Shown piece by piece: positions 17,698 through 61,302 of a stretch of DNA of 64,000 bases. The number at the start of each line of letters is the position of its first letter. The stretch's first letter is position 1. The notes beneath the pieces are model-generated. The model was given only the letters and a program-made list of their open reading frames with translations, did no database searches and was not told where the DNA came from. The translations under genes and the position numbers were made by a program. Origin of the DNA: Verrucomicrobiales bacterium (GTDB lineage: Bacteria; Verrucomicrobiota; Verrucomicrobiia; Verrucomicrobiales; DEV007); contig JAPYUT010000002.1 of the NCBI GenBank assembly GCA_029940475.1, forward strand, positions 4,934-68,933, given 5' to 3'.

Positions 17698-17772
17698 TGG
17701 TAGCAGGAGGGAGAGTTGAACTCCCGACCTTAGGCTTATGAATCCTCTGCTCTACCGCTGAGCTATCCTGCC
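17698..17772 (-). tRNA. tRNA with CAU anticodon (elongator Met most likely)
   Basis: A full cloverleaf reads from G at 17772 to an encoded CCA ending at 17698. Acceptor GGCAGGA pairs with TCCTGCT, the D-arm is GCTC/GAGC, the T-arm is GGGAG-TTCAACT-CTCCC, and the anticodon loop is TTCATAA. It lacks the three G-C pairs of initiator tRNA, and its first pair is G-U rather than the initiator mismatch. The anticodon stem (GAGGA/GCCTA) has only three Watson-Crick pairs, with G-A and A-G mismatches at its two ends. tRNA-Ile with a lysidine-modified CAU is a less likely alternative. Confidence 0.88.
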
Positions 17773-53836: not shown

Positions 53837-54844
53837 TCAATCCTTATATTTTCCACCTTTATCCCCATTCATCCAAGCCCATGCACTTTCAATAATTGTC
53901 TTAATGTCAGTAATTTCCGCCTCCCAGCCCAGTAAATCCTTTGCCAAAGTGGAATCAGCTATCAATTCCGGCGGGTCGCCTTCCCTGCGCTCTCCATACT
54001 GCAAAGGCACTCGTTTTCCTGTCACGGCTTCAGCGGCATCAATCACTTCTTTTACCGATGCTCCCTTGCCGGTCCCTAAATTACACGAGAATGACTCTCC
54101 GTCATTCTCGAGATAATTTAAAGCCCTGACATGCGCCCGGGCTAAATCCACCACATGTATGTAATCCCGGATGCAAGTTCCATCAGCAGTAGGGTAATCA
54201 CTACCAAACACGGTCATTGGACCAATCTCCCCCTTGACGGCCCGCAATACATTTGGGATCAGGTGAGTCTCCGGTTCGTGATCCTCGCCAATCACACCAT
54301 CCGGAGAACACCCCGAGGCGTTGAAGTAGCGTAGCCTCACGCTACGAATGCCATAGGCTTCATCACAATCCTTGAGGATCCTCTCCAGCATAAGCTTGCT
54401 ATGACCATAAGGATTGATCGGTTCCTGGCGATGTGTTTCAGGCATTGGTATATCCTGAGGATCACCGTAAGTTGCACATGTCGAGGACAGGATAAATTTA
54501 TCGCATCCGTGAGCGCGCATCGCTTTAAGGATAGTCAAAGGTGCAGCAGTGTTATTGGCATAATACTTAAGCGGATCAGTGACAGATTCACCCACAAAAC
54601 AGAATGCAGCAAAATGCACTACCCCATCAATCTTATACCTAGAAAATACATCTTCAACAGAAGCCGCATCCGCGATATCCGCTTCCACAAGAGTGACTCC
54701 CTCTGAGATCAGGGCATCGCGATGCCCAAAGACCAAGTTGTCAATCACCACCACTTCATAGCCAGCCTCTTCGGCCAACATCCGAACCGTGTGAGAGCCT
54801 ATGTAGCCGGCTCCTCCGGTCACCAGAATTGCACCCTTACTCAT
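53837..54844 (-). CDS. galE: UDP-glucose 4-epimerase
   Basis: 335 residues from the ATG at 54844, which precedes the NAD-binding GAILVTGGAGYIGSHTVRML directly. VVIDNLVFGHRDALISEG, VHFAAFCFVGESVTDPLKYYANN, SSTCATYGDPQ, the catalytic Tyr and Lys in NPYGHSKLMLERIL, and RYFNASGCSPDG are the usual extended short-chain dehydrogenase motifs of GalE. It interconverts UDP-glucose and UDP-galactose for polysaccharide or LPS synthesis. No other sugar-nucleotide genes are adjacent. Confidence 0.93.
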   Translation of the reverse strand: MSKGAILVTGGAGYIGSHTVRMLAEEAGYEVVVIDNLVFGHRDALISEGVTLVEADIADAASVEDVFSRYKIDGVVHFAAFCFVGESVTDPLKYYANNTAAPLTILKAMRAHGCDKFILSSTCATYGDPQDIPMPETHRQEPINPYGHSKLMLERILKDCDEAYGIRSVRLRYFNASGCSPDGVIGEDHEPETHLIPNVLRAVKGEIGPMTVFGSDYPTADGTCIRDYIHVVDLARAHVRALNYLENDGESFSCNLGTGKGASVKEVIDAAEAVTGKRVPLQYGERREGDPPELIADSTLAKDLLGWEAEITDIKTIIESAWAWMNGDKGGKYKD

Positions 54845-54925
54845 TGTTTGAGAAAAGCGTGCCAGCACATAAAGTCAATACTCGAGTGAATTCCCTGAGC
54901 ATAATTCCAACCCGCGAGGGGGTAA

Positions 54926-54999
54926 TGCCGACGGCGGGACTCGAACCCGCACTTGAGCGATTTTAAGTCGCTTGCCTCTACCAGTTGGGCTACGTCGGC
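54926..54999 (-). tRNA. tRNA with UAA (Leu) anticodon but a short, class I variable loop
   Basis: A complete cloverleaf reads from G at 54999 to A73 at 54926. The acceptor stem GCCGACG/CGTCGGC, anticodon stem AGCGA/TCGCT and T stem GCGGG/CCCGC are fully paired. The anticodon loop is CTTAAAA, giving anticodon UAA (Leu codon UUA). The variable loop is CAAGT, five bases, where bacterial tRNA-Leu should have a long paired arm. The D stem has one mismatch. No CCA is encoded (TTA follows). The tRNA-Leu(CAA) at 61220 has the normal long arm, so the contrast is within one genome. Confidence 0.9.
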
Positions 55000-55016: not shown

Positions 55017-55045
55017 CTTGTAGTGGAGTTCACCAGACCTATCAA
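55017..55045 (-). promoter_or_regulatory. Candidate promoter of the tRNA(UAA) gene
   Basis: TTGATA (55045-55040), a 17-bp spacer and TACAAG (55022-55017) on the minus strand. The -35 overlaps the stop codon of the XdhB-like gene. It is weaker than the promoter of the tRNA(CAU) gene. Confidence 0.4.
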
Positions 55046-57291
55046 GGAGCACTGGTTTCAATTGTAAAATACACTGCCTCGGGAGAAGCGGGTAGCGGCA
55101 GGATCAAACCCGGCTTTGCCCCGCCAAATGCCGCAATCCCATCCCGAATCGCCTCGCGAACCGAAAGCGCCAGGCAAAATGCCGCTGCCTGTGGATCCTT
55201 TGGATATCTGCCCTGACTTGCAAGTAATTCACAGTTAAACTGCCGGGGCACCTCTCCGGCGGTGGCAACCCGGTAACTGTCAACCTCGCCGGTAATAAGC
55301 TCGCCATTTGCAGCCCATTGCAGTTCCTCACAGGTCAGCCAGCCAAGCCCTCTCATGAAAGCCGAACATATCAGGTTTTTTGCGGTAACCGGCTCAATTT
55401 GAAATCCCACGTCCTGGACAATATCCACCCGCAACACCGTCACCTCCCCGGTAAAGCCATCAATCAACACCTCTGCCGCGGCTGCTCCGCATGCAAAGTC
55501 TCTGAAATTACGATCACCCAGCACCTCAAGCGCATTGAAGCAACCTGTGGCCTTTACATCAATTCCATCAGCAATTGCCCTGTCGACAATCTCACTCAGC
55601 GAAACCGGCATATCGGGGTGTTCCGGATCAGACACGCCTCCCTCTGAAAATTTGAGCTCCATTATGTCGGTAATATCCACATCGCTCTCCCCAAGCCGTG
55701 CGGCAGCAATCATCCTTAACCGGTCACGCAGTTGACGACACGCATCAAGAACCGCCTCGGCATAAAGTTCATCGCAATGTAACGCCGCACCCTGATCAGG
55801 ATCGCCTGCAGCAATTCGCACCGATGCCCCGCAGATCCCAAGCTCTTCTTCAACAATCACCGCTACTGATCTGCGCAGGATCTCGCCGGCATCCACACCA
55901 TCGCAAGTGACTTGTGCACTGCCATCGGCAAACAGGCATACACCGGCTTGCACCGGCTTGGCTTCCTCCCGACTCGCCCCGCACCCGATCTTAACCGGCA
56001 CCACTGCAAGTCCGCGCTTGGCAAAGGAGGAGGTTCGATTCCACTCACTGATTTCTCTCAGGCGATCCTCATACGATGAAAGCTTGGTCACCCTCTTCCA
56101 GGCATCCCTCAGGCGCAACCCATCAACGTTCTGGCCATAGTGAGTCACTGCGCGATCACTTCCTGGCGCATAGAAATTCCTCTCCCTTACCATCTTGGGG
56201 TTCATTTTCAGATGCAGGGCAACCTCGCTAATGATTTCCTCGACAATCAAAGCCGCGATCCCCGTGCCATTTGAAAACGATGAAGTAGAAGAGAGGCAAT
56301 TTGTCTTACAGATACGTCCCGAAACCTTGATGTTCGGAAAAAAATACGCGCTGTCCAGATGATGGAGTATGTTGCACAGCACGGATGCCGCCTGATCAAT
56401 CTGCCATCCGCCGTCAAGATGCACTGCGCATTCAACGCTCTGGATACAGGCACTGGAATCATGAAACGCCCGGATTATCACACTCACGGGATTCTGCTTT
56501 GCCGTCAATTTTACCCCGGTCTCACGCCTGAGTCCTATCCGCACCGGCGAAGCACTTAATTTTGCCGCCAAAGCCGCAATAGCCGGGGCGATAAGAGCTC
56601 CTGCGGACGTATCGCCATAGCCACCCACAAGCGAACGCTCAACCCTGATATCACTTTTCTCAACATTCAGCAATCCTGCCAATCCCCTCCGGACAAATCC
56701 ACGATCCCCAACTGATGTCCGAAGCTTTATTTTACCATCCTGCCCCGGTTCAGCCAGAGCAACGCAGGTTTCCAAAGAAAAATTGTCCTGCCCTCCAACA
56801 GTAAACTCCTTGTTAATCTCGCTAAGTTTCTTTTCATCCGCAGCATTGACATCCCCTCTCTGCAATACCTGCTCTTCGCCATGAAAAGACTGCACTGCGA
56901 TTGCCTCCCTAATCCCCAAAACCGGCACTCTCGGCTTGTAGTCGACCCGAACCAGCCCGGTAGCTTCACGGGCAATTACAAAATTGTCCGCAATCACCGC
57001 GGCCACAGGCTGACTATGGAAAGACACACAATCCTCCGCAAATAACGGCATCTGCCCAAACTCTGTGGAAAGATTGTTCTGTCCCGGAATATCCCGGGCG
57101 GTAAGGACCGCATGCACGCCTTCCAGCTTCAATGCCTCTTGAATGTCAATGGCATTCACCGATGCATGTGCGTATGGAGCAAGAACGAGCGCAGCTTCAA
57201 GCATTCCCCGAACTGCATCCGCATCGTCAGCGAATACCGCCTTTTCGCTGTCCGAGGGGCACCCCCGTGTATCTGGATGAATACTAGCCAT
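55042..57291 (-). CDS. Xanthine dehydrogenase large-subunit-like protein with altered Moco motifs
   Basis: 749 residues of the XdhB/molybdenum-hydroxylase large-subunit type. The N-terminal domain (LVLAPYAHASVNAIDIQEALKLEGVHAVLTARDIPGQNN...QPVAAVIADNFVIAREATGLVRVDY) is normal. The cofactor-contacting segments are not. The usual GGGFGGK reads VGGYGDT. The usual EMGQGxxT region reads CDGVDAGEILRR. The region expected to hold the catalytic Glu (GEPP before an LALSV helix) reads QAAAFCLALSV, so Glu is absent. It may be inactive or use another substrate. It overlaps the small-subunit gene by 8 bp. Confidence 0.85.
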   Translation of the reverse strand: MASIHPDTRGCPSDSEKAVFADDADAVRGMLEAALVLAPYAHASVNAIDIQEALKLEGVHAVLTARDIPGQNNLSTEFGQMPLFAEDCVSFHSQPVAAVIADNFVIAREATGLVRVDYKPRVPVLGIREAIAVQSFHGEEQVLQRGDVNAADEKKLSEINKEFTVGGQDNFSLETCVALAEPGQDGKIKLRTSVGDRGFVRRGLAGLLNVEKSDIRVERSLVGGYGDTSAGALIAPAIAALAAKLSASPVRIGLRRETGVKLTAKQNPVSVIIRAFHDSSACIQSVECAVHLDGGWQIDQAASVLCNILHHLDSAYFFPNIKVSGRICKTNCLSSTSSFSNGTGIAALIVEEIISEVALHLKMNPKMVRERNFYAPGSDRAVTHYGQNVDGLRLRDAWKRVTKLSSYEDRLREISEWNRTSSFAKRGLAVVPVKIGCGASREEAKPVQAGVCLFADGSAQVTCDGVDAGEILRRSVAVIVEEELGICGASVRIAAGDPDQGAALHCDELYAEAVLDACRQLRDRLRMIAAARLGESDVDITDIMELKFSEGGVSDPEHPDMPVSLSEIVDRAIADGIDVKATGCFNALEVLGDRNFRDFACGAAAAEVLIDGFTGEVTVLRVDIVQDVGFQIEPVTAKNLICSAFMRGLGWLTCEELQWAANGELITGEVDSYRVATAGEVPRQFNCELLASQGRYPKDPQAAAFCLALSVREAIRDGIAAFGGAKPGLILPLPASPEAVYFTIETSAP

Positions 57292-58816
57292 CCTCTACAG
57301 TTTCCCGATGTGTTTCAAATGGCAGCAGATTCTCAACCAAACCACCATCAACCGGCGTATATTGACCCGGTGTCCTGTGCTCGGCAAAGAACTTCCTCCA
57401 GAGTTGCCCTGCCATTGCATTACGATAATCGGCACTGGCCATGTCATCGGATTGTGCGGGAAATGTCTGCCGCAATGATATCGCCACTTTACGGGCCACC
57501 TTTGGTCCCCAGAGCGCCCCAGTTAAAAGTTCTTCAGCCTCATATGCGCGCATTGCTTGCGCTGAAACTCCTCCGTAACAAAGCCTTGCCCTGCTGACCC
57601 GCCCGGCTTCGTTGAGTGCCACCAGAAATGCTGCACAGACAATTGCCCTGTCATTGTGGTGTCGTCTGGAGACCTTATAGAAACCGGACAAGTTACGACC
57701 AGAATCCTGTTCACGGGCTGTTGAGTCCGGACATTCTACCAGCACTGTCTTGAGGATTTCCCCTCTGCTCAAGACCGTTCGTGAGGGACCTCCAAGAAAT
57801 TCCTCCAGCCTGAGCTTCCTCTGCTCTCTGAGATTGCTGATCACCACTTGCGCATCAAGGGCAAGCAACACGGGAACCAGGTCTGAATCATGCTCTGCCA
57901 ACGCCAGGTTGCCGCCTACAGTCGCACGGTTGCGCACCTGCGGACTGCCGAAGCGGCTTGCCATTTGGGCAATGAGCGGAAATTTTCCGGCAAGGGCATC
58001 AAACAATGATCGGATCGTGACTGCGGCACCTATCTGCCACTGCCCCTTCTCCCTTGCCACTTGCCGTAATTCAGTAACTGATTCCAGCGAAATTATCGTC
58101 CGCCGACTTGCCTTGGAGCGTGGCGAAAATTGCCGCGAAGAAGAATATGCAGTGCCTCCCGCAACCAGTTTCGAATCAGGATGCGCCTGAAGCAACCTCA
58201 AGGCCTCCGTCAGCGTCCCCGGCCTGTAGAACAGATCCCCTACCTGATCCCTATAGGCAAATGCCGGCAGCAGTCCGTCACACGATGAAGTCAGGAAACC
58301 GGCTTGTGACTTGTTTGTAGACATTTTCTCATGTCGCAGCAGCTCATTTAAGGCTGAATACAGGGGCCAATAGCCGGTGCATCGGCAAATGTTCCCCACT
58401 GCCGGCAGCAACGGGCCGCTGGAACATGTTTTTACGGGATTTTCGTAAATTTCCCCAAAAGCCATTGAGAATCCGGGCAAACAGTAACCACAGGAGAATT
58501 GTTTACATTCCGACAGGGCTTTCTGTAAAGGGTGCTCTTCTTCTCCTCCTGTCATGGCCTCCGCCGTCCAGATTTCCCGCCCGGCAACCATAGGCAAGGT
58601 CAGCTGGCACGCATTTACCACCCGGAGAACCGGGCGCTGCCGGCAATCACTATCAACCAGCAGCACCGAGCACGCCCCACAAGCCCCCCTGTCACATGCA
58701 TCCTTGGCGGAAGTCATTCGGTTTTCCCGCAGATAATCGAGCAAACCCCATTGCGCAGGAGTTCCTCCACCACGGTGGGAATTTCCATTAATGAAAAACT
58801 CAAAATCACTCTGCAT
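57284..58816 (-). CDS. Xanthine dehydrogenase small-subunit-like protein ([2Fe-2S] and FAD)
   Basis: 510 residues combining the two electron-transfer domains of XdhA. The plant-type ferredoxin site has Cys41, Cys46, Cys49 and Cys70 (DACDRGACGACSVLL...NAC). The second cluster has SCGYC and ICRCTGYWP. An FAD domain begins at about 190 (FYRPGTLTEALRLLQAHPDSKLVAGGTAYS) with the typical SRFGSPQVRNRATVGGNLALAEHDSDL. These domains look intact, in contrast to the large subunit. In the family this chain passes electrons from the molybdenum centre to NAD. No cofactor-insertion gene (xdhC) or purine-uptake gene is adjacent. Confidence 0.9.
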   Translation of the reverse strand: MQSDFEFFINGNSHRGGGTPAQWGLLDYLRENRMTSAKDACDRGACGACSVLLVDSDCRQRPVLRVVNACQLTLPMVAGREIWTAEAMTGGEEEHPLQKALSECKQFSCGYCLPGFSMAFGEIYENPVKTCSSGPLLPAVGNICRCTGYWPLYSALNELLRHEKMSTNKSQAGFLTSSCDGLLPAFAYRDQVGDLFYRPGTLTEALRLLQAHPDSKLVAGGTAYSSSRQFSPRSKASRRTIISLESVTELRQVAREKGQWQIGAAVTIRSLFDALAGKFPLIAQMASRFGSPQVRNRATVGGNLALAEHDSDLVPVLLALDAQVVISNLREQRKLRLEEFLGGPSRTVLSRGEILKTVLVECPDSTAREQDSGRNLSGFYKVSRRHHNDRAIVCAAFLVALNEAGRVSRARLCYGGVSAQAMRAYEAEELLTGALWGPKVARKVAISLRQTFPAQSDDMASADYRNAMAGQLWRKFFAEHRTPGQYTPVDGGLVENLLPFETHRETVEDG

Positions 58817-61219: not shown

Positions 61220-61302
61220 GCCGATGTGGCGGAATTGGTAGACGCGACGGATTCAAAATCCGTTGTCCTCTGGACGTGTCGGTTCGAGTCCGACCATCGG
61301 TA
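61220..61302 (+). tRNA. tRNA-Leu (CAA anticodon), class II
   Basis: The acceptor stem GCCGATG/CATCGGT, anticodon stem ACGGA/TCCGT with loop TTCAAAA (anticodon CAA, codon UUG) and the T arm GTCGG-TTCGAGT-CCGAC form a full cloverleaf. The variable region TGTCCTCTGGACGT is a long paired arm, as expected for bacterial tRNA-Leu. CCA is not encoded (TTT follows A73). Confidence 0.95.

Follow-up and report, generated by a model that had tools for sequence, protein, structure and literature searches.

A class I tRNA-Leu(UAA) without a long variable arm is probably a working leucine isoacceptor in four related genera of Verrucomicrobiales

Results

Gene content of the locus and structure of the tRNA

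The window, a stretch of 64,000 nucleotides from a Verrucomicrobiales genome, carries a tRNA gene with a UAA anticodon between a galE-like epimerase gene and the two genes of a molybdopterin-binding dehydrogenase (Table 1). The tRNA gene stands alone on the chromosome, outside any tRNA array. The large subunit gene of the dehydrogenase (F1) lies upstream of it, in the same direction and at a distance of 42 bp.

Table 1. Features of the tRNA-Leu(UAA) locus, in window coordinates
Feature	Coordinates	Strand	Evidence or remark
Class I tRNA-Leu(UAA) gene (74 nt, no encoded CCA)	54926..54999	-	ARAGORN, Rfam, fold
Acceptor stem 5' strand GCCGACG (C2-G71)	54993..54999	-	stem comparison
D arm GCCCAACUGGUAGAGGC: A14, A15, G18G19, A20a	54974..54990	-	
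Anticodon UAA	54963..54965	-	within loop CUUAAAA, 54961-54967
Variable loop CAAGU, 5 nt	54951..54955	-	final base U48 able to pair with A15
T arm GCGGG-UUCGAGU-CCCGC	54934..54950	-	
Acceptor 3' strand CGUCGGC and discriminator A73	54926..54933	-	
galE-like epimerase, downstream of the UAA tRNA	53837..54868	-	Pfam, synteny
Molybdopterin-binding (xanthine dehydrogenase-type) large subunit, marker F1	55042..57291	-	Pfam MoCoBD_1/2, Ald_Xan_dh_C
FAD/2Fe-2S subunit of the same dehydrogenase, marker F0	57284..58816	-	Pfam, synteny
tRNA-Leu(CAA), ordinary class II, comparison gene	61220..61302	+	ARAGORN, Rfam; long variable arm

ARAGORN called a tRNA-Leu(taa) at c[54925,55000], and the Rfam model RF00005 aligned end-to-end with 54999-54926 (64.9 bits, E 8e-12, cut-off 29, model positions 1-71). 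The predicted fold is a cloverleaf of -30.2 kcal/mol (z -2.77), and 0 of 200 shuffled sequences were equally stable. The tRNA reads GCCGACG UA GCCCAACUGGUAGAGGC A AGCGA CUUAAAA UCGCU CAAGU GCGGG UUCGAGU CCCGC CGUCGGC A. The first-pass annotation had described perfect acceptor, anticodon and T stems, A73, UAA in the loop and a variable loop of five bases, and all of this was confirmed. ARAGORN, Rfam and the fold agree that the long paired variable arm of a class II tRNA is missing and replaced by the 5-nt loop CAAGU. The contrasting description of the neighbouring tRNA-Leu(CAA) as a long-armed class II tRNA was equally correct. The copies of the gene in congeneric genomes encode CCA, whereas the gene in the window genome does not. 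Scans for promoters and terminators near the gene, on its own strand, gave nothing that exceeded shuffled sequences. An allo-tRNA, with a 12-bp helix split 8/4 or 9/3, was ruled out, as the acceptor and T arms are of the ordinary 7/5 type. Elsewhere in the window (17698-17772, minus strand), a tRNA with a CAU anticodon has mismatches in the first and last pairs of the anticodon stem, and may be a lysidine-type tRNA-Ile instead of a tRNA-Met.

Search for UAA tRNAs in the genome and in its relatives

The window genome (G000; 3.97 Mb in 130 contigs, 92% complete) yielded 38 tRNA matches. Judged by the anticodons read, its leucine tRNAs with CAA, CAG, UAG and AAG are all class II, and the one with UAA, an anticodon found in no other tRNA of G000, is class I. 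Five other expected tRNAs (Asn GUU, Ile GAU, Ala UGC, Val UAC and Thr UGU) were not found in G000, and at 92% completeness absence from a single genome is therefore weak evidence. It is the relatives, and not G000 alone, that settle at the level of sequence comparison whether the gene is the sole UAA tRNA.

The class I gene is carried by 13 genomes, namely four of four in the window's genus (g1), seven of ten in g16, and the single genomes of g12 and g15. The three g16 genomes that lack it have a completeness of 53-71%. Identity to the window's tRNA is 96-99% in g1 and g16, and 92-97% in g12 and g15. A strict class I pattern had no match beyond the window genome among 289 genomes sampled across the phylum, and other genomes in the family retain a class II tRNA-Leu(UAA). 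A search for a second, normal tRNA-Leu(UAA) and a survey of relatives had both been proposed in the first-pass annotation. The search, with two class II patterns, found none in any of the 13 class I genomes, and the survey revealed fixation of the class I form across four related genera. Among the family's other genomes with a completeness of 90% or more, the two patterns combined match 29 of 34; their sensitivity is imperfect, since the class II UAA tRNA of G041, a genome of another family, was missed and recovered only by a full tRNA listing. In G018 (94% complete), every tRNA match of at least 80 nt was read, and no UAA anticodon was among them. These long tRNAs were Leu CAA, CAG, UAG and AAG, together with Ser and Tyr tRNAs; with its class I UAA tRNA, G018 has the same leucine set as G000.

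As a separate observation, three genomes of the same order (L037, L433 in G018, and L438 in G041) have a tRNA-Leu with an AAG anticodon (A34) where GAG would be usual. Such a tRNA would require editing of A34 to inosine or an unusual mode of decoding.

Leucine determinants, UUA codons and leucyl-tRNA synthetase

A review lists A73, A15-U48, G18G19, A20a and the D/T-loop contacts U55, C56, U54 and A58 as determinants of E. coli tRNA-Leu, and states that the variable arm is no determinant; U8:A14 is important in Aquifex, and C2-G71 counteracts SerRS (PMC9976931). The set scored here comprised A73, A14, A15-U48, G18G19, A20a, U54U55C56 and A58, with C2-G71 against SerRS. Scored position by position, the UAA tRNA has the complete E. 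coli-type set. Among the 36 tRNAs of G000 that were scored, only the four scored leucine tRNAs, including the class I UAA tRNA, have the full set. The closest non-leucine tRNAs are incomplete, with Arg CCG lacking A20a and Gln UUG lacking A73.

UUA accounts for 257 of the 4,145 leucine codons (6.2%) in 125 long open frames of the window genome. Homologues could be aligned at 37 UUA sites, and 65% of the 74 aligned cells hold leucine, compared to 42-59% for the other leucine codons. By the established decoding rules, the C34 of the CAA isoacceptor cannot read UUA, and the class I UAA tRNA should therefore be the sole UUA reader.

Each genome contains one full-length bacterial LeuRS; further matches were weaker and were taken as related synthetases. 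A LeuRS variant as the cause of the unusual tRNA was set aside, because this single LeuRS is an ordinary one. In the LeuRS tree, the class I genomes form one clade with a support of 1.0, which fits a single origin in this clade. We also observed 23 LeuRS residues that all five class I genomes compared share (LeuRS genes L445-L449) and that none of seven class II genomes has; two of these residues sit in a short insert. They may be the result of co-adaptation or, because the class I clade is monophyletic, mere lineage markers.

The sequence data strongly support the reading of the window's UAA tRNA as a working leucine isoacceptor. Of the three options left by the first-pass annotation, a non-standard leucine isoacceptor is favoured by the sole UAA gene, the determinants, the alignment of UUA with leucine and the fixation in the clade. 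The other two, charging with another amino acid and a specialised tRNA, lost ground.

Synteny and composition of the gene

In g1, the gene order is two-gene molybdopterin dehydrogenase, class I tRNA and galE. Of the four class I genera, three (g1, g12 and g15) share the galE neighbour, and the dehydrogenase pair is found upstream in g16 as well. In G009 and G023 (g7), an F0-F1 pair that agrees in order and direction lies directly before a class II tRNA-Leu(UAA). The class I gene may thus occupy the old class II site, which would mean replacement in situ. As the dehydrogenase proteins of the class I genomes are only 27-30% identical to those of G009 and G023, the synteny is suggestive only.

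The acceptor stem GCCGACG is identical at 14 of 14 positions to that of class II UAA tRNAs of relatives (3 of 39), and the best agreement with any of the 222 other class I sequences compared is 12 of 14. The body outside the D loop and the acceptor stem agrees at 54 of 54 positions with the class I tRNA of L171, and the acceptor stem at just 6 of 14. The simplest reading of this pattern, which comprises only 14 + 54 positions, is that the gene would be a mosaic, with a class I body joined to a resident acceptor stem of the class II type. Convergence is possible because the D arm is uniform among class I leucine tRNAs. L171 (WGMU01000047.1) is a class I tRNA-Leu(UAA) in an 8.1 Mb genome, and may be kin of the donor.

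Class I tRNA-Leu(UAA) in other bacteria and in phages

For a wider scan, the pattern consisted of a D arm TAGYCCAA..AGARRC, a UAA anticodon and a T arm at the fixed distance of class I; the window's UAA tRNA matches it. In 84,980 species genomes, the matches listed were mostly from Actinobacteria, with single ones from Planctomycetota, Rokubacteria, a deltaproteobacterium and tRNA arrays. Class I tRNA-Leu(UAA) was also among the matches listed in a scan of viral contigs (many IMG/VR contigs), and annotated phages, for example Bacillus phage P59 and Rhodococcus phage Trina, carry it labelled as tRNA-Leu. A class II UAA tRNA was not found by pattern in 37 of 40 carrier genomes tested, mostly actinobacterial; of the three in which one was found, two carry arrays. 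In many Actinobacteria, class I is apparently a usual form of tRNA-Leu(UAA) (L125-L204, among the matches listed). The premise of the first-pass annotation that bacterial tRNA-Leu genes are class II does not hold in general, as class I UAA genes are frequent in actinobacterial genomes and in phages.

The actinobacterial class I tRNAs (L125-L204; Nocardia, Mycobacterium, Corynebacterium, Microbacterium and others) resemble the window's tRNA in the 5-nt variable loop, the UAA anticodon, A15/U48 and the D arm TAGCCCAA..AGAGGC. They differ in the acceptor stem, which is mostly of the GCCCC type, whereas the window's GCCGACG is that of the family's class II tRNA, and in the D loop, with GGCAG instead of GGUAG. 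The phage tRNAs have the same class I body. They are virus-borne and often occur in tRNA groups, in contrast to the lone chromosomal gene of the window, for which no class II partner was found. The Streptomyces bldA tRNA-Leu(UAA) reads UUA like the window's tRNA, but is class II. Published work on bldA assigns it a regulatory role and describes UUA codons as very rare in Streptomyces. In M. tuberculosis, long loops have been noted for Leu-2, 3 and 5. A mycobacterial tRNA cluster contains a tRNA-Leu(TAG) with a short variable loop (PMC6582537), which has a leucine anticodon and a short variable loop in common with the window's tRNA. Copies in arrays occur alongside normal class II genes, whereas no UAA tRNA other than the window's gene was found in its genome. 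Human mitochondrial tRNA-Leu(UUR) also lacks a long arm and is charged by LeuRS via A73 and A14 (PMC9976931), but it is organellar and read by the mitochondrial LeuRS. In the open-licence literature, we found no paper that describes a chromosomal class I tRNA-Leu(UAA) as such, the nearest being PMC6582537.

In some genomes of the window's family, class I leucine tRNAs are members of tRNA arrays, and a normal class II gene is present as well. The arrays of relatives (L049, L050, L051, L052, L063, L200, L397-L400) hold 5-15 tRNAs per stretch read, and their leucine tRNAs are class I. Many array tRNAs have a T loop with GTGCRA instead of GTTCRA and a D loop with AG instead of GG; the two changes look like a paired swap of the 18:55 contact.

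Discussion

With a probability of roughly 0.87, the gene encodes a functional and probably essential class I tRNA-Leu(UAA) that is charged by LeuRS, reads all UUA codons, and replaced the class II tRNA in the ancestor of the four genera. A specialised tRNA, for instance a spare insensitive to phage-defence nucleases or a regulator of rare UUA codons in the manner of bldA, appears very unlikely. Relatives do hold class I leucine tRNAs in arrays beside a native class II set, and phages carry them too, but the window's gene is the only UAA tRNA found and is solitary, its G18G19 and TTC loops are normal, and UUA, at 257 of 4,145 leucine codons, is not rare. Even less probable is a decaying pseudo-tRNA next to a working class II tRNA-Leu(UAA) that is missing from the assembly. 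The incompleteness of the assembly, which lacks some other tRNAs as well, would permit this, but the stems are intact, conservation is 96-99%, and no class II UAA tRNA turned up in the 13 class I genomes or among the long tRNAs of G018. Charging with another amino acid, with UUA reassigned or ambiguous, is hardly credible: the overall class I cloverleaf is that of most non-leucine tRNAs, but none of those scored has the full leucine determinant set, and UUA aligns with leucine as frequently as other leucine codons do.

With respect to origin only, a class II tRNA might have lost its variable arm in place, with no foreign donor and with convergent, compensating changes in the D arm. We consider this unlikely, and less likely than recombination of a foreign body. 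The acceptor stem and the apparent locus are the same as those of class II UAA tRNAs, and the D arm TAGCCCAA..AGAGGC is present in 165 of 222 other class I leucine tRNAs, a uniformity that may be structurally demanded. Against it, several specific changes would have been required together, no intermediate was seen, and the body outside the D loop agrees at 54 of 54 positions with the L171 tRNA.

In the favoured reading of a LeuRS-charged replacement tRNA, the D/T-loop core and A73 would carry the features read by bacterial LeuRS. The cell's single LeuRS would charge the tRNA with leucine despite the missing long variable arm, and the tRNA, presumably expressed, would decode all UUA codons. In the ancestor of the four genera, it would have displaced the class II tRNA-Leu(UAA) and apparently taken over its site on the chromosome, most likely by recombination of a class I body from a phage, a tRNA array or another genome onto the resident acceptor stem. 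More tentatively, and with some doubt on our side, class I tRNA-Leu(UAA) might represent one mobile phage and array lineage that has repeatedly displaced chromosomal class II genes in unrelated phyla, each time placing its body onto the resident stem. If this were true, the leucine variable arm would be dispensable in bacteria.

A tRNA of this kind already exists in public records, in actinobacteria, phages and arrays, and counts as a variant that has been under-noticed, not as a new system. What appears to be new is the replacement of class II by class I in this clade, where one isoacceptor of one amino acid would have switched structural class at apparently the same locus. It may also be an example of an essential host gene that gave way to a mobile tRNA body. 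Textbooks and annotation models treat the long variable arm as a hallmark of leucine tRNAs. According to in vitro work, E. coli LeuRS requires A73 and the D/T-loop core, but not the variable arm (PMC9976931), and a conserved, natural sole isoacceptor without the arm provides a natural test of that work. The dispensability of the leucine variable arm thereby becomes testable in vivo.
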